Positions 4,109 through 46,340 of a DNA stretch of 58,334 nt are shown here, one piece after another. How positions within the stretch are numbered: the first letter of the stretch is position 1; the number at the start of each line of letters is the position of its first letter. The notes beneath the pieces are model-generated. The model had not been told where the DNA came from. It made no database searches and worked only from the letters and a program-made list of their open reading frames with translations. The translations under genes were made by a program, and so were the position numbers. The DNA lies in the NCBI GenBank assembly GCA_022797535.1, contig JAAWKU010000004.1, forward strand, positions 1 to 58,334, in the 5' to 3' direction. Source of the DNA: Lachnospiraceae bacterium. Lineage in GTDB: Bacteria; Bacillota; Clostridia; Lachnospirales; Lachnospiraceae.

Positions 4109-4450
4109 CTATATCAGCTCCATCAGCCCGTCCAGCGGGGAGTACACCTGCAGTCCGCAGCCTTCTGCCAGTGCCTTAAGCTGCGCCATCTGCATGGACG
4201 AATGCGTCAGGCAGCGTCGGTTTGCCACCAGCAGAATATCCGCTTCCCCCCGGATGGCAGCATCCGCAAAACGCCGGAAACCGTTGCGCTCACACAACGG
4301 CCTCCTCCCTATGTCGCTGGAGCTGCCCGCCATTTCAAATCCCATCTGCTCTGCATAATCAAAGAGCAGCATGCGCTGCTTTTTTAATGTGTCATTTTGA
4401 TCCTCTGGCGCATCAATTGAGCAGTAAGCCCAGGCACGTCTCCCTTTGTC
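4109..4450 (-). CDS. Resolvase-like domain protein lacking catalytic residues
   Basis: RAWAYCSIDAPEDQNDTLKKQRMLLFDYAEQMGFEM...RRPLCERNGFRRFADAAIRGEADILLVANRRCLTHS follows the serine-recombinase fold; catalytic R-x-S is replaced by S-I-D. Confidence 0.65.
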   Translation of the reverse strand, partial: DKGRRAWAYCSIDAPEDQNDTLKKQRMLLFDYAEQMGFEMAGSSSDIGRRPLCERNGFRRFADAAIRGEADILLVANRRCLTHSSMQMAQLKALAEGCGLQVYSPLDGLMELI

Positions 4451-4901
4451 CATAAGCAGCCCCCTTTCTGTCCCCCGGCTCAGCCTGATTTCTTCTAGCG
4501 GGTTCTGCATCAGTCTCTTTTCCTTGCTGCTTCCGGGCCTCCTGCGGGCAGAACATCCCGTCCAGCCCTAAACTGACCACAATTGCATGATCCACATCCT
4601 GCATGGTCACCCTGTCCGCCCGGCCTATGTATTCCTTCAGCCTGGTCCGGTCAATGGTGCGAACCTGTTCCAGCAGGACGGTGGATTCCTGTACCAGCCC
4701 ATAAGGGCTGTCCTCCAGTCTGATATGGGTGGGGAGCGGTTTCTTTCCCTGCCTGCTGGTAATGGCGGCTGCGATCACCGTGGGGCTGTGCCGGTTCCCC
4801 AAGTCATTCTGTATGATCAGCACAGGCCGGGTGCCGCCTTGCTCGCTCCCGACCACTGGTGTCAGGTCAGCATAATAGATATCGCCCCTTTTAATCTGCA
4901 T
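4413..4901 (-). CDS. mazF: MazF/PemK-family endoribonuclease toxin
   Basis: IKRGDIYYADLTPVVGSEQGGTRPVLIIQNDLGNRHSPTVIAAAITS...LEQVRTIDRTRL is the classic MazF signature. Confidence 0.92.
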   Translation of the reverse strand: MQIKRGDIYYADLTPVVGSEQGGTRPVLIIQNDLGNRHSPTVIAAAITSRQGKKPLPTHIRLEDSPYGLVQESTVLLEQVRTIDRTRLKEYIGRADRVTMQDVDHAIVVSLGLDGMFCPQEARKQQGKETDAEPARRNQAEPGDRKGAAYGQRETCLGLLLN

Positions 4902-5500: not shown

Positions 5501-5886
5501 GGCCCTGGCTTAAAGGCCGTCATGGGTTTTCCCCCTCCGAGGTTCTCTCCGGGCCGCCCTCATTGCGTGATCCCGCTCCTGCGGGGCTGTGACTGGACGG
5601 AAGTATCATTATGGGCTGTCCATGTCATGGCAAACGGCCCGCCACAGGCCGCCTTGGGACGAACATTTGCCGCTCTGCATCTTTGATGTGATCTTATTGA
5701 CAGGTTGTTCCCTGCAGATGGTCCTGGCGTATTCTCCGCACCGCTTTGCTCTTTCAAGCTGGACAGCTAACGTATCTTTGCTGCTGGATATGACCGCCTG
5801 CCGACGGTATTTTTCAAAGAGCGGAGGGAAGAAAAAGCCCCCTCTACTTACTTCCACGTTGGCAGAACGTTTTGCACACCCTGTTA

Positions 5887-6339
5887 TTAACTTTTTTCCA
5901 AAATTTTTTTCAGTTTTTTAAGGATGCGATTTTTTCTCTTGTGTACGGCATTGTGGTATATTCCCATGCCTGCCGCAGCCTCCCGTTCTGTCTGGCCCTG
6001 AAAAAACAGGCGGTCTATCAGTTCCCGCTCATCATCAGGCAATAAAAAAAGAGCGTTATGTAACTGTGCGCACTGAATTCTACGCAGCACGGTTTCCTCT
6101 ACGCTCTCTGTTTTCCCGGCAAACTGCATCTTCTGATCTAGAAGACGTTCAAGGGAATCTTCCCTGCTGGGTATGACCGTTATATTATGCTTTTCCTGGT
6201 TTACAATAGTTTGCTCTGTTTTTAAATCATACTCCTGATACTGCATTTTTCTTTCTGTGGTTCTCAATACAGTGATTACTTCCTTGCTGGCCTCCGGATA
6301 CATCTTCTTATAATCCGGTATTCTGTATGGTTTTGCCAT
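5887..6339 (-). CDS. Sigma-70 region 4-like HTH regulator
   Basis: LLPDDERELIDRLFFQGQTEREAAAGMGIYHNAVHKRKNRILKKLKK; ATG preceded by AGGAGG. Confidence 0.8.
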   Translation of the reverse strand: MAKPYRIPDYKKMYPEASKEVITVLRTTERKMQYQEYDLKTEQTIVNQEKHNITVIPSREDSLERLLDQKMQFAGKTESVEETVLRRIQCAQLHNALFLLPDDERELIDRLFFQGQTEREAAAGMGIYHNAVHKRKNRILKKLKKILEKS

Positions 6340-7137
6340 AGGCTTATCCTCCTTCAATTTCAAATTGCAAGAAACCAAAGGACAAATGGCGGGCTGCGAC
6401 ATCTTTGCGCTGTCGCACCGCATACAGTAAACTGGCAGAAAAAAAGCTGCACCCGAATTATATTGGATGCAGCATGAAATACTATATAGAATTCTAAGAT
6501 ATTATAGAAAGAAAAACGAAAATATGTCGAACTGTGTAGCGCTATAGTCCCTATACAGCTTATAGTGCAATAAGAACAATCCTGTTTCCGTTGATTTTCT
6601 TTTTCTTCCAAATTCTATTTCCCTTTGACAATGGGAAACAGCCTTTGTGTCTATCTCTGACAGATTCCCAACGTTATTGTTGCCAGAGAAATTATACCAA
6701 AAGAATTTGTTATTATATTGTCGAAATACAGCTATTAAGCCAAAAATATCCAACCATTTTACGCTCTTCTTTCCTGTGTTTACTGATCAGTTACAAAGAA
6801 ACGGCAATGTCATGCAGTGTTACTGCTTGTAATATTTAGAAAATAGATAATATTGATGCTTACCTAAATTACTTGTTGTAAGCTCTTTGAATATTCTCTC
6901 ATTATTTTGGGTGGTTTATGGCATTTTCATTATATTCATCAATGTTCTGCTGCTATTTATTTACTCTCACTAATGTAAACGCTTGCCCTGTTTTGAATAA
7001 TATCTGCAACATCATCCACATCCCGGTCATTGTGAAACAAATAATCCACTTCCTCCAATAAAATATTATACAAATACGATCTACTGTGGCGTTATGCTCA
7101 ATTTTACAGATTACACCCTTTAAATGAAGAAATAATG

Positions 7138-8019
7138 TTAATCTATCTTTTCTCCGAATCTATAATTCTCAGGGTACTCAATGTCATAAATATCCTCCCC
7201 ATAAGGGATATCCAATGTATGGTTTTCACTTAACACATATTCTTTCCCCTTGATTTTAAACACACTGCCCGGTTCATACTTACAAAGTATTCTCCCGGTT
7301 TTCGTCAGGCTCTCATATTTCACATTATATCGTTCCTGAGTATAAATCAAAGTAGTATATTTTCCTGTAGAATAAAACCGGGTTGTTTCCGTGTCTCCCA
7401 TTTTCACCGTGAAGAACCCCGGCTGTATGCCCGCTTCCTCCAGATACGCCTCTACTTCACCCAGAGAAAAACTCTCGGCAATATAGACAGTATCTTTGGC
7501 CGTGCCTATATAGTTCCAAAACCAGGAATATCTCTCCAGTGTCCCATCGTAAGGCGCACCCCTCAAATACTCCGAGAAAATGGAACCCGGCACATGGTCA
7601 TTTGTATATAAATAATGCTCTCTGCCGTCTTTGGATACATATTTGAAATATGTATTTTTCCCAAAATCAATGCAGTTGTTTTCCGCTTTTACTTCTTTAA
7701 GCCCGGATGTATTGACAGGAGGAATCTGATCGGTAGTGAATGATCTCCCGTCCCGCAGGAAATGCACATTTCCCTGCGACTGCACCCATGAAATATTGTT
7801 GTTAATGAGTGCCAGCATATCCTTCGGTATATATTCCGCTTTCCTGCCATTTCCTGCGGAATATGTGCTAAAATATACATCATTGCTTCTGCTCCGCACA
7901 AAAATGTCCCTTTTTGCCTGCGGATTTTTCTTTCCCAGCAGCATGTTGATCAGTTTTTTTTCGGAATTATTGCTGCTCATTTTCTGTTCTAAAAGCTGGT
8001 TTGTCACCCTTACCATCAT
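7138..8019 (-). CDS. Protein of unknown function, last gene of the ECF-sigma operon
   Basis: ORF with RBS GGAGG before MMVRVTNQLL; no recognised domain. Confidence 0.6.
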   Translation of the reverse strand: MMVRVTNQLLEQKMSSNNSEKKLINMLLGKKNPQAKRDIFVRSRSNDVYFSTYSAGNGRKAEYIPKDMLALINNNISWVQSQGNVHFLRDGRSFTTDQIPPVNTSGLKEVKAENNCIDFGKNTYFKYVSKDGREHYLYTNDHVPGSIFSEYLRGAPYDGTLERYSWFWNYIGTAKDTVYIAESFSLGEVEAYLEEAGIQPGFFTVKMGDTETTRFYSTGKYTTLIYTQERYNVKYESLTKTGRILCKYEPGSVFKIKGKEYVLSENHTLDIPYGEDIYDIEYPENYRFGEKID

Positions 8020-8104
8020 AAAGCCTCCTGCCACATGGCATGCATTCCCCACAGCCAGTCTTGCATCATGAGGAATGCATGAGCGTTTTTCTTTCAAACT
8101 GTTT

Positions 8105-8962
8105 TTATGGAATGATTGTCATATCATCTTCAACATACTCTGAAGTTACCGGATATACATACTGGAATGTTATGGTAGGCGAAAACGTTATATCTTTTGA
8201 ATACTCAAATATGATCTGCCAGTTACTGCGTATGGGCATTGACAGTGAGACCAGCCCTCTTTTACTCCATGTATACCTATCCAGATTAATTGTATTGCTT
8301 GTTGTACGATTCCTAACAGCAATACCATCAACTGCCGTTGACCTGACATTGTTTACTGTCATGGAATAAACAATTGCACCTTCTGGTATCTCTGTTTCCC
8401 CTCGTAAATCCGCAGAAGAAGAGCTGTCTGAACCCTGCATTGTTACACTTCCAAGTTCAACTGTACAGGATGCAACCGTATAAACCGGGTCTCCAACCAG
8501 CAATGAGTAATCCCGTATGGACGACATGTTTGTATAAATTCTTACATAATAGTAACCGGCCGTAGCCACCCTAAAACCATAAGCCTTGCTGCCAAATCCG
8601 GTTTTTATATATTCATCACTTATTATGGGGATGGAGCTGGATTCAGAATACACTTCAAAGTTGAAATATGAATCGCCATTCAGTGTAACATATTGCGTTC
8701 CGGCATCCAGATAAACCTTAAACCAGTCCTCATCACCTGAACTCGTTGATCCATCTACCACATACTGATTCGGCTTGCTTCCACTAACTGCCTGTGCAGG
8801 CGTTTCACGATTTGCTGTAATCGTCATTGCGGTTTCTCTGGTATTATTAGGCTCCTTTTCATACACCGTAGTAGCTGCCTGTACCGGCAGAGAGATAATG
8901 TTCATCAAAGTAACGCACGATAATACAACTGCAAGAATTCGTTTTTTTAACTTCATTTTCAT
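8105..8962 (-). CDS. Secreted protein with PPC-like (bacterial pre-peptidase C-terminal) domain
   Basis: Signal peptide MKMKLKKRILAVVLSCVTLMNIISLPVQAA; YEKEPNNTRETAMTI...DEDWFKVYLDAGTQYVTL...AGYYYVRIYT typical of PPC. RBS GGAGG. Confidence 0.75.
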   Translation of the reverse strand: MKMKLKKRILAVVLSCVTLMNIISLPVQAATTVYEKEPNNTRETAMTITANRETPAQAVSGSKPNQYVVDGSTSSGDEDWFKVYLDAGTQYVTLNGDSYFNFEVYSESSSIPIISDEYIKTGFGSKAYGFRVATAGYYYVRIYTNMSSIRDYSLLVGDPVYTVASCTVELGSVTMQGSDSSSSADLRGETEIPEGAIVYSMTVNNVRSTAVDGIAVRNRTTSNTINLDRYTWSKRGLVSLSMPIRSNWQIIFEYSKDITFSPTITFQYVYPVTSEYVEDDMTIIP

Positions 8963-8994
8963 AAGTTTATTCCTCCATTTCATATTGTTCGTAC

Positions 8995-9396
8995 TCAATA
9001 CGTCCTTTCTGCTGACGTTGCGGTCTTAGTTTCCCCGTCCGCACTGCAGGTCATAGCAACCCGGTATGTGCCTCTGGAAACCTGATATGTTTCGGCAACA
9101 GATGTACTGCTTGTATCGCTGGAATTCTCCCAGGACTCCACATCAACCCACGTGCCTGAAACACTCTTTTGCAGCGTAACTTCCACATAAGTGCTGGTAA
9201 CGCCCAATTTCCCTCTTACAAAACCGGATATAGATGCGGTGCCGTCACTGGAAATGGAAAGTTCTGTGCCATATACACTTATGCTGGCCATTCTCGGCTC
9301 CATTTGCACATCGAGCTCTCTTGCATGAACTGGAATCGGTAGTATCAGGCCGCATAACAGTACACAGACAACTGCCATTCTGCATATTTTTTTCAT
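8995..9396 (-). CDS. Small secreted protein, beta-rich (possibly DUF6147-like)
   Basis: Signal peptide MKKICRMAVVCVLLCGLILPIPVHA; VEVTLQKSVSGTWVDVESWENSS; RBS GGAGG. Confidence 0.65.
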   Translation of the reverse strand: MKKICRMAVVCVLLCGLILPIPVHARELDVQMEPRMASISVYGTELSISSDGTASISGFVRGKLGVTSTYVEVTLQKSVSGTWVDVESWENSSDTSSTSVAETYQVSRGTYRVAMTCSADGETKTATSAERTY

Positions 9397-9420
9397 TGGC
9401 AGATTCCTCCTTTCACTAAA

Positions 9421-9452
9421 CAATAACGAAATGGGATACCCTGTTTGTTACA
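9421..9452 (-). promoter_or_regulatory. Candidate ECF-type promoter, copy 2 (upstream of secreted-protein genes)
   Basis: Minus strand TGTAACAAACAGGGTATCCCATTTCGTTATTG: -35 TGTAAC(A), -10 CGTT; same 32-nt layout as copy 1. Confidence 0.7.
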
Positions 9453-9474
9453 TTTTTTTCAAATTTTTTAATAT

Positions 9475-10164
9475 TTAATGCCTGTCATCCTCTATGCTGG
9501 CAAATATCATACATACTTCTTCAATGCTTAGGCTGCCCGCTGTCAATACATAAACATACCTGCCGTACTCACAATATGCATTCACAAACCCATCAAGGTA
9601 CAGTGAAATGGCGACCTGTTTCCCGTTAACCTCTTTGATAACCTGTTGATCGTATTCTGTGTCTGCAATTAATTCTCCCCCGTCCTGAACCAGCATCTGG
9701 TCCCATGTGATTATTTTTCCATCTTCATTTGCATATGTTACGCTGAACCAATGCTCTAAGACAATTCTTTCCGTCTCCTGATAACCCTCCGGAATAAATC
9801 CGGGTTCATGGCACTGCATATCCCTCTGGTTCTGGTTCACAAAGTAAGAATATACTATGGCATCTTCCCAGATGGACTTTACCGTCTCAAAAAATCTGGT
9901 TCTGTACGCCTGTACACTCATTGTTATTGCAAACAGGGGGCCGAGCACGCACAGGAACAGGAGCGCCGCCCTTCTGTGCCGCCTGTAAAATATGCCTGTC
10001 CATGGATGTGCCTCCCTCCTTATCAGCTTCTTCATCCTGTGTTCAAACCGGCCTGAAAACTGATAACTATAGTCCGTTTCATTCTCAAGCTCCCTTATGA
10101 TCGCCTCATCAACCACCGGCATATACTTATACAGCCATTCATCAGTCACCCTTATTTTTTCCAT
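9475..10164 (-). CDS. Anti-sigma-like membrane protein with DUF4367-like extracytoplasmic domain
   Basis: Single TM segment; GFIPEGYQETERIVLEHWFSVTYANEDGKIITWDQ resembles DUF4367; directly follows the sigma gene. Confidence 0.75.
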   Translation of the reverse strand: MEKIRVTDEWLYKYMPVVDEAIIRELENETDYSYQFSGRFEHRMKKLIRREAHPWTGIFYRRHRRAALLFLCVLGPLFAITMSVQAYRTRFFETVKSIWEDAIVYSYFVNQNQRDMQCHEPGFIPEGYQETERIVLEHWFSVTYANEDGKIITWDQMLVQDGGELIADTEYDQQVIKEVNGKQVAISLYLDGFVNAYCEYGRYVYVLTAGSLSIEEVCMIFASIEDDRH

Positions 10165-10696
10165 GTCCATCCTCCAGTTTTTGTAACGCGTCCTCAATCA
10201 GCAGTTTCCCCCGGGCAATCCGTTGTCTCACTGTGCCTTCCTGAATGCCGCATAATCCGGCAATTTCCCTGTTTTCCAGATTTGCGGAATATTTTAATAA
10301 GAAAATGTCCCTGTATTTTACAGGCAGGTTTTTCAATATATCTAAAACATCATTCTCCAAATCCGTTTCCATATAAACCACCGGTATATCCTTTCCTGCT
10401 AATTCATCCACATATATTTCTCTCCGGGTCCGTGCGTTTTTCTTTCTATAAAGGTCAACAGCCGCATTTTTAACGGCTGTAACCAAATATCTCTTTGTCT
10501 GCAGGCTTTCCGGCTCCCCAATGACATCCATATGCATGGCTAAATTCATAAACGCATTATGTACGGCATCCTCTGCAGAAAAGCGGTCATGGAGTACATC
10601 CATTGCAACCTTCTGCATCAGGTATCTGTATTTTTCGTATAGGGTAACAAATTTCCGCCTGCCCTCCGGCGTATCTATCATCAATAAAAATATCAT
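10142..10696 (-). CDS. ECF-type RNA polymerase sigma factor
   Basis: Region 2 DRFSAEDAVHNAFMNLAMH; region 4 LPVKYRDIFLLKYSANLENREIAGLCGIQEGTVRQRIARGK. Confidence 0.92.
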   Translation of the reverse strand: MIFLLMIDTPEGRRKFVTLYEKYRYLMQKVAMDVLHDRFSAEDAVHNAFMNLAMHMDVIGEPESLQTKRYLVTAVKNAAVDLYRKKNARTRREIYVDELAGKDIPVVYMETDLENDVLDILKNLPVKYRDIFLLKYSANLENREIAGLCGIQEGTVRQRIARGKLLIEDALQKLEDGHGKNKGD

Positions 10697-10767
10697 ATAG
10701 GTTCCCCGTCACGGTTATATATGTGTTTTCCCCTTGCGTTATCTAAACCTGTTTCACTGTCTATTAA

Positions 10768-10799
10768 CAATAACGAAATACAAGGGACTGTTTGTTACA
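10768..10799 (-). promoter_or_regulatory. Candidate ECF-type promoter, copy 1 (upstream of the sigma gene)
   Basis: Minus strand TGTAACAAACAGTCCCTTGTATTTCGTTATTG; identical flanks and spacing to the 9421-9452 copy. Confidence 0.7.
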
Positions 10800-11020
10800 T
10801 TTCTCCTAAAATTTATATATCCATTTTTCATCAAAAATTGCCCCTACACTTTCCCATATCATGATTTATACCCGTTTTTATATTATTAATCAAGCAGAAA
10901 TGTAAAATTTCCAGTTATACCGTGGTTTTATTATAATTTTTTATAGTTGTATTTTTACAGTTGCTTTTCTCCGCATTCAGAGTTAATATACACCAACCAC
11001 GAGAAAAGGAGGCATTTTTT

Positions 11021-16023: not shown

Positions 16024-18990
16024 TCAGATCTGCTCCTGCACAGGCTCCCTGTCATCCCTCTTGTGGCCCTGGGCCTGTTTCTTCTCCGAGAGCCTGCGGC
16101 GGCGTTTCCGGTCGATGTGGAACGGGCTGCCCCCTGCGGCCCTCTGCACATCCTCCCTAAGCAGCTTTTCCAGCCGGTGCATCAGGCGGGTTGCTGCCAG
16201 GAACAGGTCGGCGTCCTGAAATGCATCCATGTGCTCCAGCAGGAATGCCGCATAAATGTTGCCCTGTCCCGCGGCGGCCTGCAGGTACACAGTGGCTTTT
16301 TCCCTGTCATGGGGAATGTCTTTTCCGCAGAGGTACAGCTTTCCAAGGGCATACTGTGCATGTTGGTTTCCCTGCCCTGCAGACTGCTCCAGCCAGTAGA
16401 CGGCTTTTTCCACGTCCTTTGGAATATCCTCCCCGGAAAGACACAGTTTTCCAATGGTGTATTGTGCGTATTGGTTTCCTCGTTCTGCGGACTGCCCCAG
16501 CCAGTAGACGGCTTTTTCCACGTCCTTTGGGATATCCTCCCCGGAAAGACACAGTTTTCCAAGGGCGTACTGTGCGTATTGGTTTCCCTGTCCTGCGGAC
16601 TGCCCCAGCCAGCAGACGGCTTTTTCCATGTCCTTTGGGATATCTTCCTCGGATAGATACAGCCGCCCCAGCCGGTATGCCGCATAATCATTTCCCTGTC
16701 CTGCCGATAAGGTGAACAGTTCCACCGCCCTTGCAGCGTCCCTTTCTACCACCTCCCCGGACAGGCAGAGCTTACCGAGGGTATATTGGGCGGCGGCGTT
16801 TCCCGTCTCCGCCGCCTTAGTAATCCAACGGACGGCCTGCGCAGTATTTCCTTCCCCGGTTTCCAGCCACAGTTTCCCAAGGGCATACTGCGCATGGACG
16901 TTCCCCATCTTTGCCGCCCGCCCCCAATAAGCCGCAGCGGCATCATCATCCCTCTCGGTTCCCGTGCCGGTGTGCAGCATCTGTCCCAGACGGTACTGCA
17001 GCTTGTCATCTCCGCTCTTTTCTTCCAGATACAGAAAGCCGGAAAATGCATTCTGAAAACTGGTATCGGCCCGGCTGCTGTCCGTCTGTGTGCCAATCCC
17101 GTCACGGTACATCCTTGCCAGTTCATAATCCGCATATGGATTGCCCTGTTCCGCAGAGCAGCCATAAAGCCGGAATGCCTCTGTGTCATCCTGTGCCACG
17201 CCCTGCCCCCGGTGGTATAAGCCCGCAAGGGAATACTGCGCATACTTATGCCCTGCCGCTGCCGCCTGGGACAGCCACCGCGCCGCTGTCCCATAGTCCT
17301 GTTCGGCGCCAAGTCCGGCGGCATATATTTTCCCGATGCGGTATTGCAGGTAGGGGCGTTCCCCTTCCTTTGCTTCTTTCTCTGCCCCATGGAAAGCCTG
17401 CAGCGCCTTGGCGTACCATTCCTGCGCCGCATCCTGATCCGCATCCTGTCCAAGACCGTCCGCACATATCCTGCCCAGATCATGCATCGCCAAGGCGTTC
17501 CCCGCCTCCGCCTCCTGACACAGCAGGGTGCGGGCCTGTGTAAAGTCCTGCACGACATTCCCTGATCCGTAGAGATATCTGCGGGCCTGCTTATAGTTCT
17601 TGTTCCACTCCGCATAAAAGGCCGGACTGCCGCCAGCATCTTTCGGTGATTCCCTTTCCGCCGTCCTGCCGTCAGGTTCTTCCGCCCTGTCCGCATCCTC
17701 CGTGGGCCAGTCAGGGATAACCTCCGAAAACCAATCAGAGGCATCACTCAGAAAACAATCAGAGGCATCTTCCGGAAACTGGCCAGCGGTGTCTTCCCTG
17801 TCTGGCAGTCCTTCCCCGTCCGGAAACAGGCTCTCCCTTTCTTCCTGCCATGCCTCATCCTCAAAGAGAAACCGGCCGCTGCCCAGCCTGACCGCCTCCG
17901 TGATTACCATGTTCTTCAGGCTCTTAAACTGGGGCTGGCTGGAAAGCGGCGGCAAGGGCGGCGTGCTGTTCCGGTAAGTCAGCAGAATCTCACCCTGCCA
18001 TTTCCCCCATGCCCGGTACAGCGCATCCACCTTTTCCTCCTTCGCCAGTTCATCTACGATTCTGTCTACCAGATTTTTCACATCCCGCTTAAGGTACCCG
18101 TACACTTTTTTCCCGCCCGTGTTCTGCAGACGTTCTGAAAGTCGCACCATCATCTTCTCAATCTCCGTGCTTGCCACCGTGCTGCGGCGCAGTGCGTCCA
18201 TCGTCTCCCGCACCGCATTTGCAGCGCCTTTTTTCAGGTCTGTGCGGGATTGGTTCTGTTTTTCATAGATGTGCGCAAAGTCTTGCCGGAAGATATCGTG
18301 GGCCAGCTCCGAGCGCATGGCCTCGATGGACTTTTCCGTCAGGTATCCGTCATTGTCCTTTGCGGAATAGACCATCAGGTGTACATGGGGGTGGTGTCCC
18401 TCGTTGTGGAATGCGGCATACCAGCGCAGGTTGGCGCTGTCAATCTTCATGTGTTTGCAGAGCATAGCCCGCTTGGAGCGCAGCAGCGCCATCCACTGTG
18501 CGGCGCTGTCATAACCCAGCCTTGCGGCATCCTCCCGCCGTAGGGAGATGACGTGGGTCCAGACCGGGCCTTTATGTGCGGCCGCTTCCTGCTCCACCTG
18601 TTTTAACACCACCGCTTTCCCTGCGTCCGTAAACAGGCCGTGCTCACCCAGGCGTTCCACTCTGGGACGGTTTGCGATGTAATCCACATAGTTCTTCCGG
18701 CTGCCGATGAGATCCACGTTCTGCTCCAGAGCACAGGAGATAAACTCCGATGCGTTCCCCATGGTGGGGCGCAGCAAAAAGTCCGTGTATTCCAGCATCT
18801 CCTTTGCGGGCGGGATGTCACGGACGATCTGGCGTATCAGGTCTTTCTGCTGTATTGTGGCCGGGAGGTTCTGCCTGCTCCCTTCCACCTTCTCCACGCC
18901 CTCACGGGTGCTGACGTAGCGGACATAGTTCTCCAGCTGTGCTGGAGGCGCGTCCCGCAGGTAGCGGGAGGTAAAGATTATTTTTGGCAT
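16024..18990 (-). CDS. MobP-type relaxase fused to C-terminal Sel1-like repeats
   Basis: Metal-binding motif HNEGHHPHVHLMVY; C-terminal half is tandem 36-aa Sel1 units (QYALGKLCLSGEDIPKDVEKAVYWLGQSA). Confidence 0.92.
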   Translation of the reverse strand: MPKIIFTSRYLRDAPPAQLENYVRYVSTREGVEKVEGSRQNLPATIQQKDLIRQIVRDIPPAKEMLEYTDFLLRPTMGNASEFISCALEQNVDLIGSRKNYVDYIANRPRVERLGEHGLFTDAGKAVVLKQVEQEAAAHKGPVWTHVISLRREDAARLGYDSAAQWMALLRSKRAMLCKHMKIDSANLRWYAAFHNEGHHPHVHLMVYSAKDNDGYLTEKSIEAMRSELAHDIFRQDFAHIYEKQNQSRTDLKKGAANAVRETMDALRRSTVASTEIEKMMVRLSERLQNTGGKKVYGYLKRDVKNLVDRIVDELAKEEKVDALYRAWGKWQGEILLTYRNSTPPLPPLSSQPQFKSLKNMVITEAVRLGSGRFLFEDEAWQEERESLFPDGEGLPDREDTAGQFPEDASDCFLSDASDWFSEVIPDWPTEDADRAEEPDGRTAERESPKDAGGSPAFYAEWNKNYKQARRYLYGSGNVVQDFTQARTLLCQEAEAGNALAMHDLGRICADGLGQDADQDAAQEWYAKALQAFHGAEKEAKEGERPYLQYRIGKIYAAGLGAEQDYGTAARWLSQAAAAGHKYAQYSLAGLYHRGQGVAQDDTEAFRLYGCSAEQGNPYADYELARMYRDGIGTQTDSSRADTSFQNAFSGFLYLEEKSGDDKLQYRLGQMLHTGTGTERDDDAAAAYWGRAAKMGNVHAQYALGKLWLETGEGNTAQAVRWITKAAETGNAAAQYTLGKLCLSGEVVERDAARAVELFTLSAGQGNDYAAYRLGRLYLSEEDIPKDMEKAVCWLGQSAGQGNQYAQYALGKLCLSGEDIPKDVEKAVYWLGQSAERGNQYAQYTIGKLCLSGEDIPKDVEKAVYWLEQSAGQGNQHAQYALGKLYLCGKDIPHDREKATVYLQAAAGQGNIYAAFLLEHMDAFQDADLFLAATRLMHRLEKLLREDVQRAAGGSPFHIDRKRRRRLSEKKQAQGHKRDDREPVQEQI
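16282..16713 (-). repeat. Near-identical 108-bp tandem repeats within the relaxase gene
   Basis: CAGCCAGTAGACGGCTTTTTCCACGTCCTTTGG... recurs at 16390, 16498 and 16606, exactly 108 bp apart; a more diverged unit starts at 16282. Confidence 0.9.
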
Positions 18991-19011
18991 GGCGTTCCCC
19001 TCCTTTATCAC

Positions 19012-39001: not shown

Positions 39002-39412
39002 TCACTTCCAATACACTTCTGATTTCCCGGTGGCCTGCGAGCGCAGGATGACAGGGAACGAACCGAAATTCCCGAACAGCCCGATGTCCTTCTGCAGCGT
39101 CAGGGTCACCGTCACCTCCTGGTTCAGCTGTATCTGCCCGCTGTCAGACCACGCAATCTGCGGGTCGATCCCCGTCCTCTCCCGCAGGACGGCAGCCCGC
39201 CTGTCCGTCTCCGCACCGATGTGCCCGGAAATCTCCGCCTCCCGCATCAGTTCCGTGGCAAAGGTGTCAAGCTGCTGTTTGGCGATGAACACCGGCAGCA
39301 CCCGCAGCGAGAGCGCCAGCACCAGCATAACGCACAGCACCAGAACGGCCACGTCCACATACCCCTCCGCCCGCCGCCCTTTTATGATGCGGCAGAACCG
39401 TTTTCTCAGCAC
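39002..39412 (-). CDS. DUF4320-family TadE-like pseudopilin
   Basis: RRAEGYVDVAVLVLCVMLVLALSLRVLPVFIAKQQLDTFATELMREAEISG. Confidence 0.8.
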   Translation of the reverse strand: MLRKRFCRIIKGRRAEGYVDVAVLVLCVMLVLALSLRVLPVFIAKQQLDTFATELMREAEISGHIGAETDRRAAVLRERTGIDPQIAWSDSGQIQLNQEVTVTLTLQKDIGLFGNFGSFPVILRSQATGKSEVYWK

Positions 39413-40203
39413 ATGACCACCCCCTGTCTCTGGACACCTTCCCCTACCTGCGCTACCATGGGGTACTCCCCGATGCCGGTTCCCTTGTCCTTCATGTTCC
39501 AGAGCATATGGTCGATTTCCTCATGGCGGTCGCAGTTTTCATTGTCCTGCCAGCTGTCCCGCAGCAGTTCCAGCGGATTTTCAAACTGCAGCAGATAGTC
39601 CGCATATCCCACGAATGCCCCCTCCACCAGCACTTCCTCATAGATGAATTTTGCCGCGGCGATCTCTGATGCCATCTCAATGAGTTCTTCTGCAGGTTTC
39701 TGCCGAAGCTGTCGGATGTATGCCTCATAGCAGGCTTTCAGCCGCTCTTTCAGCCTTTTTTCCTTTCCGTCATCCATTGCCTTGTCCACCTCCTTCCTGT
39801 TATCTTCCACCTCTGCCCCCATCCTTTCCCTGTCCACCTCCTTTATACTTTCCCATGTCGGCCCTATCACTTCATCCAGTTCCAGATACCGCGGGTTTGC
39901 CACAATGTATCCGCAAAGCAGCATGCGGACGATCAGCTGGAATTCAGCGGCCCAATCCCTTAAGTCCTGCCCGGTATTGGCGTACCATGTGTCAAATTCA
40001 CGGATCAGCGCCAGCGTCTGCCTGTCCGAAAGCCCAAGCGGGAGGAATGCCAGAGGATGCCCCGCGCCGTCATGACAGAACGCATCTTCTGCTTCCATCC
40101 TCCCCGTCCTGTCTGAACGCAGGGAGAGCTTGCAGCTGTTGTCCTCATCCATGGGGGAGATGCCAATGACCTCATAGATTTCATGCCTGTAGATTGTTTT
40201 CAT
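39406..40203 (-). CDS. DUF3848-like protein
   Basis: C-terminal KPAEELIEMASEIAAAKFIYEEVLVEGAFVGYADYLLQFENPLELLRDSWQD. Confidence 0.55.
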   Translation of the reverse strand: MKTIYRHEIYEVIGISPMDEDNSCKLSLRSDRTGRMEAEDAFCHDGAGHPLAFLPLGLSDRQTLALIREFDTWYANTGQDLRDWAAEFQLIVRMLLCGYIVANPRYLELDEVIGPTWESIKEVDRERMGAEVEDNRKEVDKAMDDGKEKRLKERLKACYEAYIRQLRQKPAEELIEMASEIAAAKFIYEEVLVEGAFVGYADYLLQFENPLELLRDSWQDNENCDRHEEIDHMLWNMKDKGTGIGEYPMVAQVGEGVQRQGVVMC

Positions 40204-40213
40204 ACTCCCTCTC

Positions 40214-41086
40214 CTAAAACATCCCGCCAAGGCTCTGCAGCGCCACATAACAGATAATGGCTAAGTAGGTCAGCAGGAAACATACCAGCATGATGAAAGA
40301 GAACACCCTGATCTTTGGCGGTATCTTCTGCGCCTGGGCCTTCAGCCTCTGCAGCTCCATCTGCTTGAAATCGTGGGACAGCATCTGGAAATACACGGCA
40401 CTGTCATCCCCCCGCAGCACCCCGATCAGCCCCCGCACCACATCTGAGAGCATGGGGGAATTGAGCCTTGCCTCGAACCGGGTCAGCGCCGCCTCATAGT
40501 TGGAGGAGCGCATGTCCGCCAGCAGGACGTCAAGCTCCCCTTTGAGGGCCTCCCCTGCGTTTCCCCGGAAACGCTCCAGCATGCCGATCACGTTCCGGCT
40601 GGCTTTCAGCTCCTGCTCGATGGTGGCCACCATTCTGGGCAGCTCCCCCTCGATCTGCTCCCGCTTTGCCTTCAGCCGCTCGTCCGCTTTCCCGGTCTCC
40701 CTGAAGTACAAAAGGAGGGCAAGAACCACCACAAAGGGGGCAAGCAGCGGCATCAGGAAGAGGCAGGGTATCACGCCTAAGAGCACCGCCCCCGCTTTCA
40801 CCAGAGCGTATGCCTGGTAGACCTCCGGCTCCATGCCCATGCCGCCTGCCTTCAGCACGTTTGCCATCCGGCTTCTCTTGTACTCGTCCATCCGGATGTG
40901 CTTTGACAGTTTCACAGCCGCTGACATCAGGCAGGCTTCCACGGTCTTTGCTGCCTTCTTCTCCTGTTTCACCGTCCCCAGAATAGCCCTGGATGCGCCG
41001 GTGGTGGGCAGTCGTAAGAATGCGGCTGTCAGGTAAAACAGTCCAAGGGACAAAAGCAGCCCGAATAAGAATAAAAGTCCCGTCAT
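40214..41086 (-). CDS. tadC: TadC-like (T2SSF) membrane protein
   Basis: LPRMVATIEQELKASRNVIGMLERFRGNAGEALKGELDVLLADMRSSNYEAALTRFEARL...; TM helices; gene order after TadB. Confidence 0.85.
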   Translation of the reverse strand: MTGLLFLFGLLLSLGLFYLTAAFLRLPTTGASRAILGTVKQEKKAAKTVEACLMSAAVKLSKHIRMDEYKRSRMANVLKAGGMGMEPEVYQAYALVKAGAVLLGVIPCLFLMPLLAPFVVVLALLLYFRETGKADERLKAKREQIEGELPRMVATIEQELKASRNVIGMLERFRGNAGEALKGELDVLLADMRSSNYEAALTRFEARLNSPMLSDVVRGLIGVLRGDDSAVYFQMLSHDFKQMELQRLKAQAQKIPPKIRVFSFIMLVCFLLTYLAIICYVALQSLGGMF

Positions 41087-41091
41087 GGCGC

Positions 41092-42021
41092 TCACCTCCT
41101 GTATTCTATGGGACGGGTCAGCTTCACCACAAAGCCTGCAGATATGAAGATTGCCGCGGCTGTGGCGGACAGGATCACCTGTCCTAATGGCGTGTGCATC
41201 AGCACATGGTACCAATCCTTGTTTAACAGGTACATTAACGGGATGTTCCCCACCACGAAGATAACCATGATCAGGAATTCCTTGCGGGGTTCCACGATCA
41301 GATACTCCAGCTCCGCATTCACGTTCCGCATATCCGAGAGTTTCGTCACGATGGGCGTCAGGGTGGTTTTCAGGCTTCGGTCATGCTGGCAGTCGCTGAC
41401 GGCGTCGCACCATTCCCGGAACACCTCGTTGTCAATCCGCCCCCGCATGGCCTTCAGCGCCGCCTCCACATCCGGGCTGACCATCTTGATCTGCATCAGG
41501 AAGTCCCGGAACACCTTGGAGACCGGCGGGTTTAAATAGCTGATGTTTTCCTCCACGGCTGTCACGATGTCCTCGGTCCGCAGATAAGCGGTGGTGACCA
41601 CCGACAGGGCCGTCTCCAGCTCCGCCGACACGTCACGCCTGTAATGGCCTGCCGTCAGCTTCACATACCAGAACGGCAGGAACAAAAAACCCACCGCCAT
41701 TACCGGGGCCAGAAAAAAGTTCCCCAAAAGAATGGCGGTGGAGCCGCCCATACAGAACAAGGCCAGGGCCTCCGCGCATATCAGCGAAAAGCGTTTCCCC
41801 CTCCCTGTCATCTCCAGTACGCCCTGGGCCTCCAGAATCTCCCTGCGCAGGGGTCCGGGTCTCCTGCGCCCGGTAGTTTCCCGGATATCCTCCCGGATGC
41901 TGCCTTTCGGCTTTATCAGGAAAGCGAACAGGCCGTCCGTGAATTCCGTGGGCTTTAGGCCCAGGATCAGGAACACGCCTGTTATCAGCCCGGCGCAGGC
42001 CAGCAGTTGGATCGCTGTCAT
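41092..42021 (-). CDS. tadB: TadB-like (T2SSF) membrane protein
   Basis: VSAELETALSVVTTAYLRTEDIVTAVEENISYL...EVFREWCDAVSDCQHDRSLKTTL. Confidence 0.85.
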   Translation of the reverse strand: MTAIQLLACAGLITGVFLILGLKPTEFTDGLFAFLIKPKGSIREDIRETTGRRRPGPLRREILEAQGVLEMTGRGKRFSLICAEALALFCMGGSTAILLGNFFLAPVMAVGFLFLPFWYVKLTAGHYRRDVSAELETALSVVTTAYLRTEDIVTAVEENISYLNPPVSKVFRDFLMQIKMVSPDVEAALKAMRGRIDNEVFREWCDAVSDCQHDRSLKTTLTPIVTKLSDMRNVNAELEYLIVEPRKEFLIMVIFVVGNIPLMYLLNKDWYHVLMHTPLGQVILSATAAAIFISAGFVVKLTRPIEYRR

Positions 42022-43658
42022 AGGGCATCCCCCTCCTTCCTTTTTCCGTTGCTGCCAGACACCGCCAGAAGCCGCGAGAGCATCTCCTGAGGCATCCCGT
42101 TCTCCATCAGGCGGCGGGCAAGCCCCTCCGATATGGGGTTCACCTGCCTATGGCTGCCATTTATTATGAACCTGCCGTTTTCCACCCGGTTCTCCGTGAT
42201 CTGGTACTGGAACAGGGGGCGGAACTTCCTTGTGCCGTCCGGCAGGATCTCACATTCCATAATCTCCATCAGCCGCCGGTCCTTGTTCTCAAGCTGCTTG
42301 CAGAATGCCACGATGGGGTATGCCTCCGTGACGAACCCCATCAGGGTGTCATCCCCCATGTCGACAGCCCTCTTGCAGAGGGACACCATGCGCCTGTAGG
42401 TGGCGTCGCAGCTCATGGAGTGGATGGTGGTGACCACGGCCACGCCGGTGCGGGCGGCTTCCTGCGCCGCATTCGCCTCCGGCCCCCGCATCTCCCCCAC
42501 CACGATGATGTCAGGGTTGAAGCGCAGCGCCATGTCAAGGAGGGCGATCTGGTCCACCCTCTGGCGCTCGTTCTCGCTGTCGCGGGTCAGGGTATGGATG
42601 ACGGAATTGACCACTTTTCCCTCCTTCCTGCGCACCAGGGCCAGCTCTCTGGAGCCGTTCTCTATGCTGTAGATGCGCTTGCCGTCAGGAATGGTGGTGA
42701 GCAGCCACCCAAGGAGGGTGGTCTTGCCGGAGCTGGTGGCTCCCGCCACGCACACGGAGATGCCGTAACGGATGCATTCCGCCAAAAAGTCCAGCATCTG
42801 CCCCGTGGCCGTCCCGCCCTTTATGAAGTCCTGCTTTTTCATGCTCTGGGGGTTGACGATACGGATGCTGGCCGCCACGCCCACGTCCTCATCCACTATG
42901 GGTGTCTTTAATACGGCAATGCGGATGTTCTTGGAGAGGTGCCCCAGGACGCTGGGGCTGGCATCGTCCAGCACCATGCCGGAAACGTGCAGCATGCGCC
43001 GCACCACGTTGATGGCATGCTCCGGGCTGTCGAAATGCTCCGTGAGCTTCTCCGTCACGCCGCCCGAAAACTGCACCTCCACGTCATCCCATGCGTTGAT
43101 GTCGATCTCCTCTATGCCCTCCCCGTAGATATATTTGGTCAGGAAACCGAATTCCGCCATCTCGCAATAGATGGCATCGATCAGCGTTTCCGTGTCCATG
43201 CCCGGCACGGATATCCTGTGGTCCAGAATATACTTTCCCGCAAAGCGCCGGATCTGCGCTCTGGCATCTTCACTGCCCTCCGCTGTGACCAGGCTGCTGT
43301 ACTCTTTGGAAAGATATGCCTGCACCTCCTTAAGCACGGAGGCAAAATCCCTGCCCTCCGCATCCGCCTCAAAGAACAGGCCGTGGGCGCGCAGCGTACT
43401 GACATCCCGTCTGGGGGCGTCATAATCTTCCCCACTTTCGGGGAATCCCTCCCCGGCAGGGACATTCCGTATCTCCTCTGCTGTAGGTTCCGCCTGTTTT
43501 CCGGCATCTCTTTGGTTCGGACGGTCTTCCCCTGCACACGGAGGAATGGCATGTGCGGTTTCCGCCTCCGGATTCCCCGCAGCCATGCTTTTTCCTGTCT
43601 GAACACTTCCGTAAAAATCCCCCTGTAATGCCGCCCGGCTCCGCTTTTCCCCTAACAT
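42018..43658 (-). CDS. tadA: CpaF/TadA-like secretion ATPase
   Basis: CVAGATSSGKTTLLGWLL; RFNPDIIVVGEMRGPEANAAQEAARTGVAVVTTIHSMSCDATYRRM. Confidence 0.95.
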   Translation of the reverse strand: MLGEKRSRAALQGDFYGSVQTGKSMAAGNPEAETAHAIPPCAGEDRPNQRDAGKQAEPTAEEIRNVPAGEGFPESGEDYDAPRRDVSTLRAHGLFFEADAEGRDFASVLKEVQAYLSKEYSSLVTAEGSEDARAQIRRFAGKYILDHRISVPGMDTETLIDAIYCEMAEFGFLTKYIYGEGIEEIDINAWDDVEVQFSGGVTEKLTEHFDSPEHAINVVRRMLHVSGMVLDDASPSVLGHLSKNIRIAVLKTPIVDEDVGVAASIRIVNPQSMKKQDFIKGGTATGQMLDFLAECIRYGISVCVAGATSSGKTTLLGWLLTTIPDGKRIYSIENGSRELALVRRKEGKVVNSVIHTLTRDSENERQRVDQIALLDMALRFNPDIIVVGEMRGPEANAAQEAARTGVAVVTTIHSMSCDATYRRMVSLCKRAVDMGDDTLMGFVTEAYPIVAFCKQLENKDRRLMEIMECEILPDGTRKFRPLFQYQITENRVENGRFIINGSHRQVNPISEGLARRLMENGMPQEMLSRLLAVSGSNGKRKEGDAL

Positions 43659-44464
43659 CCGAACACCTCCCTTGTAATGGCCTCCATAGATTTCCGGAAT
43701 GCCCTGCTGTCCTTCAGCCCCAATTCTTTGAACAGGTTCCCCTCCAGAACCTGTGACGCCACCTCATCGGAATGGGGTATCTGGAACGCCACGCTCCCCA
43801 GCACCTGCTCCATATGTCCGCTTGCCTCGTTAGGGTACACGTTGGCTGCCACCCTGTACTGCTTTTCCGCATCCCATTTGCTCTCCTTTAATAAGGGCAG
43901 CTGGCTGGACAGGTAGCTGATGGATTTTAAGTCGCAGTTCACCATCCGCAGCACTGCATCGGACTTGAGCAGGGCGATAGCGGAGAGGATATCGTTGGCA
44001 ATGGAGCTGCTACAGTCGATGACCACATAGGGGGCGATGTTCCTTAACGCCTGCAGCAGTTCCTCCGCCTGGGGACGCTCATAGGGCGGATAGGTGTATT
44101 CGTTCTCCCCTTTCCGCATTCCGAGGATGGCAAGGTGGCGGAATTTCTTATGGGTGATGCAGTTGTGCCGCACCAGAGATTCCGACACATGGCTCGCCGC
44201 AAGGATGCTCCCGAGAGAATGTTCTTCCTCCAGATCCCCGGGCGGGCAGATGCAGGGGAGCATGGGTGTGTTCATGTCACATAAGAGCAGCGCCACGTCC
44301 TTCTTCTGCTGTGCCAGATATGCCGCCAGCTTGACGGCCACCGTTGTCTTACCGCAGCCGGGACTACCCCACACCGCCAGCACCCGATTTCCTTTTTCAG
44401 GCTCTTTCCGATTATCCTCCCCGCCGTTGTGTCGGCTGAATATGCTGTTCTTCATGAAATTCAA
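43652..44464 (-). CDS. tadZ: CpaE/TadZ-like P-loop ATPase
   Basis: VLAVWGSPGCGKTTVAVKLAAYLAQQKKDVALLLCDMNTPML; Tad-operon position. Confidence 0.8.
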   Translation of the reverse strand: MNFMKNSIFSRHNGGEDNRKEPEKGNRVLAVWGSPGCGKTTVAVKLAAYLAQQKKDVALLLCDMNTPMLPCICPPGDLEEEHSLGSILAASHVSESLVRHNCITHKKFRHLAILGMRKGENEYTYPPYERPQAEELLQALRNIAPYVVIDCSSSIANDILSAIALLKSDAVLRMVNCDLKSISYLSSQLPLLKESKWDAEKQYRVAANVYPNEASGHMEQVLGSVAFQIPHSDEVASQVLEGNLFKELGLKDSRAFRKSMEAITREVFGC

Positions 44465-44467
44465 TCC

Positions 44468-45337
44468 CTATTCCCCCCCGCTTCCCGACAGCGCTTCCTC
44501 CGCCTGCTGGATCACATCCTCCATGGACTGGCCGTTTTCGGGGCTGTCACCTCTTTCCCCTGTTTCCTGAGTGTCCTCTGCGCTTTTTTCCTCATCTTCT
44601 TCTGCAGGCGCATACAGTTCTTCCAGCACGGCATCCTGCGCCGTAATAAATTTGGCGGTGTTTTCCGCATCCCCCCGGTATACCAGCGAAAGGTGCAGCC
44701 TGCCCTCTGCCTCCAGTTCCGCCAATATTCTTGACTGTTCCGGCGCCACCAGCAGCGTCACGGTGGTGGGCAGCTCCCTTTCGGAGTCCCCATCCTCCCG
44801 CTCCCCGGTATTGGCGTCATACCCGCTGTTCGCCGTCACGGCAATGACCTCCACATACTGAAGTTCGGGCGGTATTACGGTCACCCCCTGCTTTTTGTAG
44901 TCTGGGGCGATGACGGATACGATGTCGCCGCTCTGCAGCTTTCCCGACAGCCCGTTGGCAAAGGCTTTCACCGTCACGGACATGGCCTGTTTCTCGCCGT
45001 TTAAGCTGTAAAGGTAGGCGTTCTCTGCGGCAGGCTCATCTGCGATTTTGGAGGCGATGATATAGTCTCCCGGCACAAAGTCGGCGGAGGCGTACCTGCC
45101 GATGGCCGTCTCCGGGTTCCTCACCACATCCTCCGGCAGGTTGTACCCTCCTACCTCCACCACCTTCACCTGCGCCGCCGTGATCTCATCGCCCTTTTTG
45201 ATCTCCCGAACCACCCGCACGATCTGAGTCTTTTCGCTGATGCTCTTGTTAAAAAGCGGTATAACCGCAAAGCATATGGTCAGCGACAGTATGATGCAGG
45301 CCACCCCTATGACGATCCTGTTCTTAAAAATCTGCAT
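44468..45337 (-). CDS. cpaB: CpaB/RcpC-like SAF-domain protein
   Basis: VVREIKKGDEITAAQVKVVEVGGYNLPEDVVRNPETAIGRYASADFVPGDYII. Confidence 0.88.
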   Translation of the reverse strand: MQIFKNRIVIGVACIILSLTICFAVIPLFNKSISEKTQIVRVVREIKKGDEITAAQVKVVEVGGYNLPEDVVRNPETAIGRYASADFVPGDYIIASKIADEPAAENAYLYSLNGEKQAMSVTVKAFANGLSGKLQSGDIVSVIAPDYKKQGVTVIPPELQYVEVIAVTANSGYDANTGEREDGDSERELPTTVTLLVAPEQSRILAELEAEGRLHLSLVYRGDAENTAKFITAQDAVLEELYAPAEEDEEKSAEDTQETGERGDSPENGQSMEDVIQQAEEALSGSGGE

Positions 45338-45361
45338 TCTTTTCCCTCCAAAAATAATTTT

Positions 45362-45727
45362 TCACATGCACAACCCCGCCATCTCCTGCGGGCATGCCGT
45401 CTGCTGCGCCTGCCCCATGAGCTCCCCAAGGCTGCACATCGGCTCATCCTCATGGAATTCTATCCCCTTCAGGCACAGGGATTCCCTGCCATGGAAAGGA
45501 AGCGGCTCCATGGAAATAATCGCCCCGACACAATTTTCTGTGACCGGCCTCTGTGAGGCATAATTGTTCTTAGCATCCATAGGCTCCCCGGAGCCGAAAA
45601 GGTCATAACAATAAAGTCCTTCGGGGACAGTGCCATGGTCAACCGGCGCACCTGTCCCCCAGACTGTCCTTCCCTCCAGCTCTGCCCGTTCATACATCCA
45701 CCCTCCGGCATCTGTACGTTTTTCCAT
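45362..45727 (-). CDS. LPD28-like domain protein
   Basis: VDHGTVPEGLYCYDLFGSGEPMD...VGAIISMEPLPF; resembles the 49610-49981 product. Confidence 0.65.
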   Translation of the reverse strand: MEKRTDAGGWMYERAELEGRTVWGTGAPVDHGTVPEGLYCYDLFGSGEPMDAKNNYASQRPVTENCVGAIISMEPLPFHGRESLCLKGIEFHEDEPMCSLGELMGQAQQTACPQEMAGLCM

Positions 45728-45878
45728 CCCGATCCCTCCAAAGTCCGGGCGGGCCTTCCATGAAAGCCCGCCCCCCTGTCTTACCTGCCCACTGCGTATC
45801 TTTTCCTGCGGCTGCGCAGGAACGCCGCCAGTGCCACCACCGGCACGGCGGTACAAAGTGTGATGATGATTTTCTTTT

Positions 45879-46340
45879 TCATATGGTCCATCCTCCAATC
45901 TTCATGAAATAGGCCATGGCTGCCCCTGCCGCCAGGAACGGCCCTGCGGGGTGGGCGGTCCTTCCCGGCCTCCCCTTAAGCCTCCTTACGCAGGAACAGA
46001 TAAGCCCGTAAACGGTAAACACTGACAGCCCCATGACGGATGCCGCCAGGCTGGCCGGCAGTCCCAGCATAATTCCCATGGATGCCGCCAGCTTGATGTC
46101 CCCGCCCCCGATCCCTCTTGGCTCTTTCCCCACCAGTGCCACTAAGAGGTACGGCAGCGCCGTAAATGCCCCGGCAAGGTTCCATGGGGAAAAATGCAGC
46201 AGGGACAGCAGTGCGATGGCCGTCTGCAGGCTGTCCGGGATCTCCCTGCTCTTGATGTCGCAGACGGAAACCGCGGCCAAAAGAAAAAGGAACAGCACAG
46301 CCTGCAGCACCACCCCTGGTGATGCAGGGTTAACCGGCAT
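45879..46340 (-). CDS. tadV: Prepilin peptidase (A24, TadV/CpaA-like)
   Basis: DIKSREIPDSLQTAIALLSL; GIGGGDIKLAASMGIMLG (catalytic Asp motifs). Confidence 0.9.
   Translation of the reverse strand: MPVNPASPGVVLQAVLFLFLLAAVSVCDIKSREIPDSLQTAIALLSLLHFSPWNLAGAFTALPYLLVALVGKEPRGIGGGDIKLAASMGIMLGLPASLAASVMGLSVFTVYGLICSCVRRLKGRPGRTAHPAGPFLAAGAAMAYFMKIGGWTI

Follow-up and report, generated by a model that had tools for sequence, protein, structure and literature searches.

Sigma factors of the UviA/BotR/TcdR type, found on clostridial plasmids and other mobile elements, are each dedicated to a neighboring secreted product, which in the case of UviA is a bacteriocin. To our knowledge, most of the extracytoplasmic function (ECF) sigma groups of gut Clostridia do not have a single studied member. 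In the sigma-V/RsiV system, the anti-sigma factor RsiV is cut by signal peptidase at a V-X-A-like site in Bacillus subtilis and probably also in Clostridioides difficile (PMC9044953). In Thermoanaerobacter tengcongensis, the DXXR motif of the ECF sigma factor Tt-RpoE1 has been shown to read the -10 element CGTC, including its G (PMC3397946). The present analysis concerns an ECF sigma factor, its predicted DUF4367-containing anti-sigma factor, and the genes for secreted proteins next to them on a 58,334-nucleotide (nt) stretch of DNA from a Lachnospiraceae bacterium (assembly GCA_022797535.1, contig JAAWKU010000004.1, positions 1 to 58,334; hereafter, the window). These genes very probably form a mobile, self-regulating module, with two predicted promoters read by its own sigma factor and with a mode of activation proposed by analogy to RsiV. 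The components that carry this interpretation are the following:

10766-10799, minus strand: P1, predicted promoter box preceding the sigma gene (-35 element TGTAAC, 10799-10794; N18; -10 element CGTT, 10775-10772)
10142-10696, minus strand: ECF sigma factor, 184 amino acids (aa), with the DXXR motif of region 2.4 at residues 81-84 (nt 10456-10445) and the recognition-helix residue Q158 (nt 10225-10223)
9475-10164, minus strand: DUF4367 membrane protein, predicted anti-sigma factor, 229 aa, with cytoplasmic helices 8-29 and 38-52, a long membrane-spanning helix 54-90, and a beta-rich outer domain 93-222
9419-9452, minus strand: P2, predicted promoter box preceding the operon of secreted proteins (-35 element TGTAAC, 9452-9447; N18; -10 element CGTT, 9428-9425)

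Predicted promoters of the module

The two boxes have the same sequence, TGTAACAAACAG-N8-ATTTCGTTATTGTT, and P2 starts 22 nt past the stop codon of the anti-sigma gene. A first-pass annotation of this DNA had described them as 32-nt repeats at 10768-10799 and 9421-9452; these positions are exact, and the identity extends to 34 nt with 26 fixed positions, inside a pair of 61-nt segments that are 72% identical. The same annotation gave the motif as TGTAAC-N20-CGTTATT, whereas the true gap is 18 nt. An AAC-type -35 element and a CGT-type -10 element (TGTAAC/CGTT), as expected of ECF promoters, are found at both boxes and across the relatives of the module; neither box has a match in Rfam.

With up to 3 mismatches allowed, the 26-position pattern occurs only at these two sites in the entire 3.54-Mb genome (the reversed control has none). 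The genome-wide motif search that the first-pass annotation had proposed, run as TGTAACN{14,19}CGTTATT, likewise returned the two boxes, with no background occurrence at unrelated genes, against one match for the control. A chance repeat could be ruled out, given that the boxes are unique in the genome and conserved across modules.

Homologs of the anti-sigma protein are encoded in 17 of the 61 sampled genomes of the same genus and in 13 further public contigs from Lachnospiraceae and other Clostridia, which partly overlap the same genomes; profile searches recovered them in 32 of 138 same-genus genomes. For 23 independent modules, a weight matrix, constructed with the tested module left out, was applied upstream of the sigma gene and downstream of the anti-sigma gene and compared with 200 shuffles. 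P1 scored above all 200 shuffles in 18 modules and is also clear in L027, where the spacer measures 17 nt, for a total of 19 out of 23; the 4 modules without P1 rank among the most diverged in sequence. P2 was found downstream of the anti-sigma gene in ∼15 of the 23 modules, several of these boxes being marginal or degenerate. In 25 whole genomes of the same genus, the strict pattern had 10 matches (2 for the reversed control), 9 of them at modules; the tenth falls in a genome that has no module. In the other module-bearing genomes with matches, these are confined to the module. Given this scarcity, the regulon is apparently confined to this locus, so that the earlier description of the module as self-contained holds for the strict pattern; weaker targets are possible. 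An orphan box, TGTAACAAATAG-N-TTCGTTAT, precedes a membrane-protein gene in a genome that has no module (L036, G006:C1:1205736) and may be due to chance.

Covariation of the -35 element with the sigma factor

The sigma factor consists of the Sigma70_r2 and Sigma70_r4_2 domains (Pfam E values of 1.2e-6 and 1.6e-12, respectively) and, being shorter than ∼200 aa, belongs to the ECF (group 4 sigma-70) proteins; it also matches TIGR02937 (78 bits, cut-off 42.9). The DXXR motif of region 2.4 is invariant in all 27 sigma factors compared. Some of the more distant modules contain TGTCAC instead of TGTAAC at -35, and their -10 element stays CGTT. Twelve modules have a P1 and a P2 that match the pattern, and in all 12 the two boxes share the fourth base of the -35 element (A/A in 10 and C/C in 2). 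This base is accompanied by residue 158 in the region 4 recognition helix, which is Gln in 19 of 19 modules with TGTAAC and Lys in 6 of 7 modules with TGTCAC (Fisher's P = 3e-5 for the 26 modules, not corrected for shared descent). Two modules from Clostridioides plasmids, with P2 in the form TGTCACAAA-N17-CGTTAT, also have Lys158, which brings the TGTCAC modules to 8 Lys and 1 Gln. A single recognition-helix residue that tracks a single -35 base represents an unusually clear and testable promoter code. Thr155 was considered as a second specificity residue and follows the -35 base perfectly among the P1-bearing modules. However, L017 and L018, with TGTCAC at P2, retain this Thr, so no role for it is claimed.

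Footprinting, the joint change of the -35 element and the recognition helix, and the scarcity of the boxes agree with the earlier proposal that a single promoter type precedes the sigma gene and the genes for secreted proteins. On this comparative evidence, the boxes are predicted to be promoters read by the adjacent sigma factor. Transcription start sites would then fall just past CGTTATTG, at approximately 10765 and 9418.

Two other readings of the boxes had to be weighed. The halves TAACAAA and TTTCGTTA, spaced by about two turns of the helix, are nearly reverse complements of each other, so that the boxes could be operators, with the near-palindrome TAACAAA ... TTTcGTTA bound by a dimeric regulator, rather than -35 and -10 elements. 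However, the outer TTGTTA is not conserved, the -35 change follows the recognition helix of the adjacent sigma factor, and the right half stays CGTT in modules with TGTCAC, with no change to match the left one, which counts against a palindrome; owing to these one-sided changes, the operator reading was rejected as very improbable. P2 could also be a recent passive copy of P1, a functionless product of segmental duplication, in which case the downstream genes would be expressed by read-through or from another promoter. The 72% identity of the 61-nt segments and the modules without P2 fit such an origin. Nevertheless, the box persists in diverged modules in which spacers and flanks differ, always just past the anti-sigma stop codon, and is kept in two Clostridioides plasmid modules that have no recognizable P1. 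No sigma-70-like site above the shuffled expectation was found for the downstream genes, nor does any terminator offer another explanation of their expression: such sites are no more frequent in the region than in shuffled sequence and are absent between the module genes. A passive origin of P2 is, therefore, highly unlikely.

The predicted DUF4367 anti-sigma protein

The product of the second gene matches DUF4367 (PF14285) with 35.5 bits against a gathering threshold of 22.1 (E value, 1.5e-8). Its gene overlaps the sigma gene by 23 nt, which suggests that the two are cotranscribed. With its position next to the sigma gene, one membrane helix preceded by basic residues, and an outer beta domain, this protein resembles class I membrane anti-sigma factors and is predicted to inhibit the sigma factor. 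In the AlphaFold2 model (predicted local distance difference test [pLDDT] score of 83), two short N-terminal helices, modeled with a pLDDT of only ∼56 to 77, are followed by the long membrane helix and the beta-rich outer domain; the sequence had no match in the PDB. The earlier characterization of the module as envelope-sensing derives from this membrane anti-sigma protein, and the module may respond to an extracellular signal. One further feature lies just outside the membrane:

9907-9915, minus strand: V-Q-A, residues 84-86, putative signal-peptidase-like site just past the membrane helix, assigned from homolog comparison and the RsiV analogy

A [VITA]-X-[AG] motif is found at this position in all 23 anti-sigma homologs, and the host encodes a full RasP/RseP homolog (TIGR00054, above the cut-off; G000:C79). 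Because of the conserved V-X-A site and the host RasP/RseP, proteolytic activation is the best guess for this protein, and the analogy suggests that it would proceed as in RsiV. In two relatives (L032:8001-9119 and L034:8001-9119; 372 aa), the N-terminal half of the anti-sigma protein is kept but joined to a different outer domain, and another one (L016:1492-1884; 130 aa) has no outer domain, so that sensing is apparently modular. DUF4367 was not mentioned in the literature searched. However, public plasmid records already annotate sigma genes next to DUF4367 genes, so the pairing itself is not new.

Output genes

The genes on the minus strand are arranged in the order P1, sigma, anti-sigma, P2, SEC1, a larger secreted protein, and U294:

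8995-9396, minus strand: SEC1, small secreted protein, 133 aa, with a signal peptide; recurrent third gene of the module
8105-8962, minus strand: secreted protein, 285 aa, with a signal peptide; PPC-like below the threshold only
7138-8019, minus strand: U294, leaderless protein, 293 aa, of no known family

The sigma factor and the DUF4367 protein, both supported by profile matches, and the two signal-peptide proteins agree with the first-pass description, and its unknown 294-aa protein has 293 residues and belongs to no known family. The PPC-domain label of the 285-aa protein could not be kept: the match to PF04151 spans the whole profile but, at 14.8 bits (E = 0.054), falls short of the 25.9 bits that Pfam requires. 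Across the 138 genomes of the genus, SEC1 had 8 matches that cover >80% of the query, all of them adjoining an anti-sigma gene. In one genome, a fragmented anti-sigma gene and SEC1 lie side by side in what is apparently a decaying module (G129:C7:36317-36716).

A larger secreted protein is again encoded downstream of SEC1 in G041, G019, and G047, followed by leaderless proteins, and in G037 a U294 homolog is encoded directly 3' of the anti-sigma gene. U294 was modeled by AlphaFold2 with a pLDDT of 72, and an attempt to assign its fold produced no PDB match. U294 homologs in L082, L095, and L096 adjoin leaderless DUF6033 or FliD_C-like proteins, which points to a protein family whose members are leaderless and may be exported. 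The outputs of the module are most likely secreted factors that work at or outside the envelope.

Mobile context and distribution

The window, a single contig, encodes a MobL relaxase, a VirD4-type coupling protein (T4SS-DNA_transf), a TraG-type P-loop ATPase, and a serine recombinase, a gene content that identifies it as an integrative and conjugative element (ICE). The module lies in a variable segment of this element:

6403-10958, no strand assigned: variable ICE cargo slot; the flanking backbone is 74 to 90% identical at the nucleotide level in related ICEs, and the segment itself is replaced

In related ICEs, the slot contains transporter genes (one element), a different sigma/DUF4367 pair (one element, L117; G093:C2:1-6500), or a diverged copy of the module (G014/G047). 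In the sigma tree, the two ICE copies are placed in different supported groups, which led to the rejection of a single origin: the slot must have taken up modules at least twice, or else one module replaced another. The earlier placement of the module on an ICE thus holds insofar as it is exchangeable cargo of this element. An ICE-specific system, however, was rejected, since most of the relatives are chromosomal or plasmid-borne, with the majority of copies being chromosomal.

The core triad of sigma, DUF4367 anti-sigma, and SEC1 recurs on Clostridioides plasmids, with SEC1 homologs downstream of the pair (phmmer E values of 1e-12 to 3e-16); a Vescimonas plasmid encodes a weaker SEC1 match (4e-6). 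In a Flavonifractor plasmid, the third gene product has a SEC1-like size and a signal peptide but no match to SEC1. In one C. difficile plasmid, the triad is followed by a gene (L173:4830-5537) whose product belongs to the geobacillin-26 family of class III bacteriocins (PMC13176240), with an NF035925 score of 159.5 bits (cut-off, 40). The plasmid pCd7_3 (L174) and near-identical 12.5-kb C. difficile plasmids carry sigma, DUF4367, and SEC1 genes, no further secreted gene, and no recognizable box. No relative of the module was found in viral contigs.

Several other features of the element were observed. Window positions 39406-46340 encode Tad/Flp-type pilus components (a T2SSE-family ATPase, T2SSF-like proteins, a CpaE-like ATPase, RcpC/CpaB, and a type IV prepilin peptidase), and the MobL relaxase (16024-18996) is fused with ∼10 Sel1 repeats in a single 990-aa open frame. 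A PemK/MazF-family toxin gene is accompanied by an upstream, same-strand Rfam "pemK RNA" element (4413-4901 and 5520-5612). A separate sigma region 4 protein without a sigma2 domain (5887-6339; 150 aa from an internal ATG) belongs to the ICE backbone and, in its position just beyond the cargo slot, is conserved among related elements. At the contig end, a sequence that marginally resembles a tRNA (126-181; 29.7 bits versus 29) is possibly an attachment-site tRNA.

Proposed mechanism and function

At rest, the DUF4367 protein is predicted to hold the sigma factor at the membrane. A signal at the outer domain would probably trigger two-step proteolysis, by signal peptidase at the V-X-A site and then by a RasP-type site-2 protease. 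The freed sigma factor would transcribe its own operon from P1 and the SEC1, larger secreted protein, and U294 genes from P2, the whole module traveling as cargo in an exchangeable ICE slot. Several observations weigh against this scheme. The 18-nt gap between TGTAAC and CGT is 2 nt longer than the 16 nt measured in Tt-RpoE1. One module (L123) combines TGTCAC with Gln158, and another (L024) has TGTAAC at P1 and a short-spaced TGTCAC at P2. P2 is absent or degenerate in L081, L032, and L034 and weak in L078 and L079; distant plasmid modules have no recognizable P1, and several have neither box. The outer domain resembles E. coli RseB and PsbP-like folds only weakly (E values of ∼0.005 to 0.03). 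Finally, neither the 285-aa protein nor the other secreted protein of the window matches the geobacillin-26 model NF035925 of NCBIfam. The interpretation offered in the first-pass annotation is, as a whole, partly supported.

As for the purpose of the outputs, the cassette could protect the envelope, as sigma-V does against lysozyme, its products binding or blocking a factor, from the host or a competitor, that the DUF4367 domain senses. The membrane anti-sigma protein with its conserved RsiV-like V-X-A site is consistent with this, and the csfV operon of C. difficile yields a membrane-bound, lysozyme-binding decoy (PMC9044953). However, the module has no homology to RsiV or its operon, and its outer domain belongs to a different family and is swapped in L032 and L034, which leaves envelope protection somewhat doubtful. 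In an antagonism system, the larger secreted protein would kill related cells, with SEC1 and/or U294 serving as accessory or immunity factors. The geobacillin-26 family gene in the corresponding position of a C. difficile plasmid, the copies on plasmids and ICEs, and the fast-varying cargo would all fit such a role, and, if the outputs prove antagonistic, the module would represent a new regulatory route for mobile bacteriocins of gut bacteria. Still, the 285-aa protein has no similarity to known bacteriocins, some modules end at SEC1, and in most chromosomal modules other secreted proteins are encoded; antagonism by this cassette is accordingly rather unlikely, and the lead toward a bacteriocin-like function comes from a single distant homolog on a plasmid. 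A broader proposal, itself doubtful, is that the triad is an exchangeable cassette that, across Clostridia, drives the expression of secreted antagonists, with SEC1 as the constant partner (e.g., an anti-sigma feedback ligand or an immunity or chaperone factor) and a sigma/promoter pairing private to each copy.

Comparison with known systems

The UviA/BotR/TcdR-type sigma factors belong to a different sigma group and use different promoters, and we know of no DUF4367 anti-sigma factor associated with them. Similarly to the sigma-V/RsiV systems of B. subtilis and C. difficile (csfV), the module combines an ECF sigma factor with an adjacent single-pass anti-sigma protein that has a V-X-A/A-X-A site past its membrane helix, RasP in the host, and products at the envelope (PMC9044953). 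In contrast to these systems, its outer domain is DUF4367 rather than the RsiV lysozyme receptor, its promoter is TGTAAC-N18-CGTTAT, its regulon is mobile and limited to one locus, and its cargo is different. Tt-RpoE1, paired with Tt-TolB, is likewise an autoregulated ECF sigma factor with DXXR in region 2.4, and its promoter, with a TGTTAC-type -35 and a CGTC-type -10 element, is similar to the module boxes (PMC3397946); that system differs in its 16-nt gap (17 to 18 nt here), its TolB-like anti-sigma factor, and its chromosomal location.

The sigma-70/DUF4367 pairs on Clostridioides, Flavonifractor, and Vescimonas plasmids share with the module the gene order of sigma, DUF4367, and a small secreted protein, and two of the Clostridioides pairs also have the P2-like box. 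They differ in their sigma factors (∼33% identity), in having no recognizable P1, and in their downstream genes, one of which is of the geobacillin-26 family. The module appears to be a still unstudied member of a regulator class that is itself ordinary, autoregulated ECF sigma factors with membrane anti-sigma factors. It is set apart by a regulon that is both private and mobile, by a small secreted protein as its constant partner, and by a specificity relation of one residue to one base, and it could supply an orthogonal sigma/promoter pair for Lachnospiraceae genetics.

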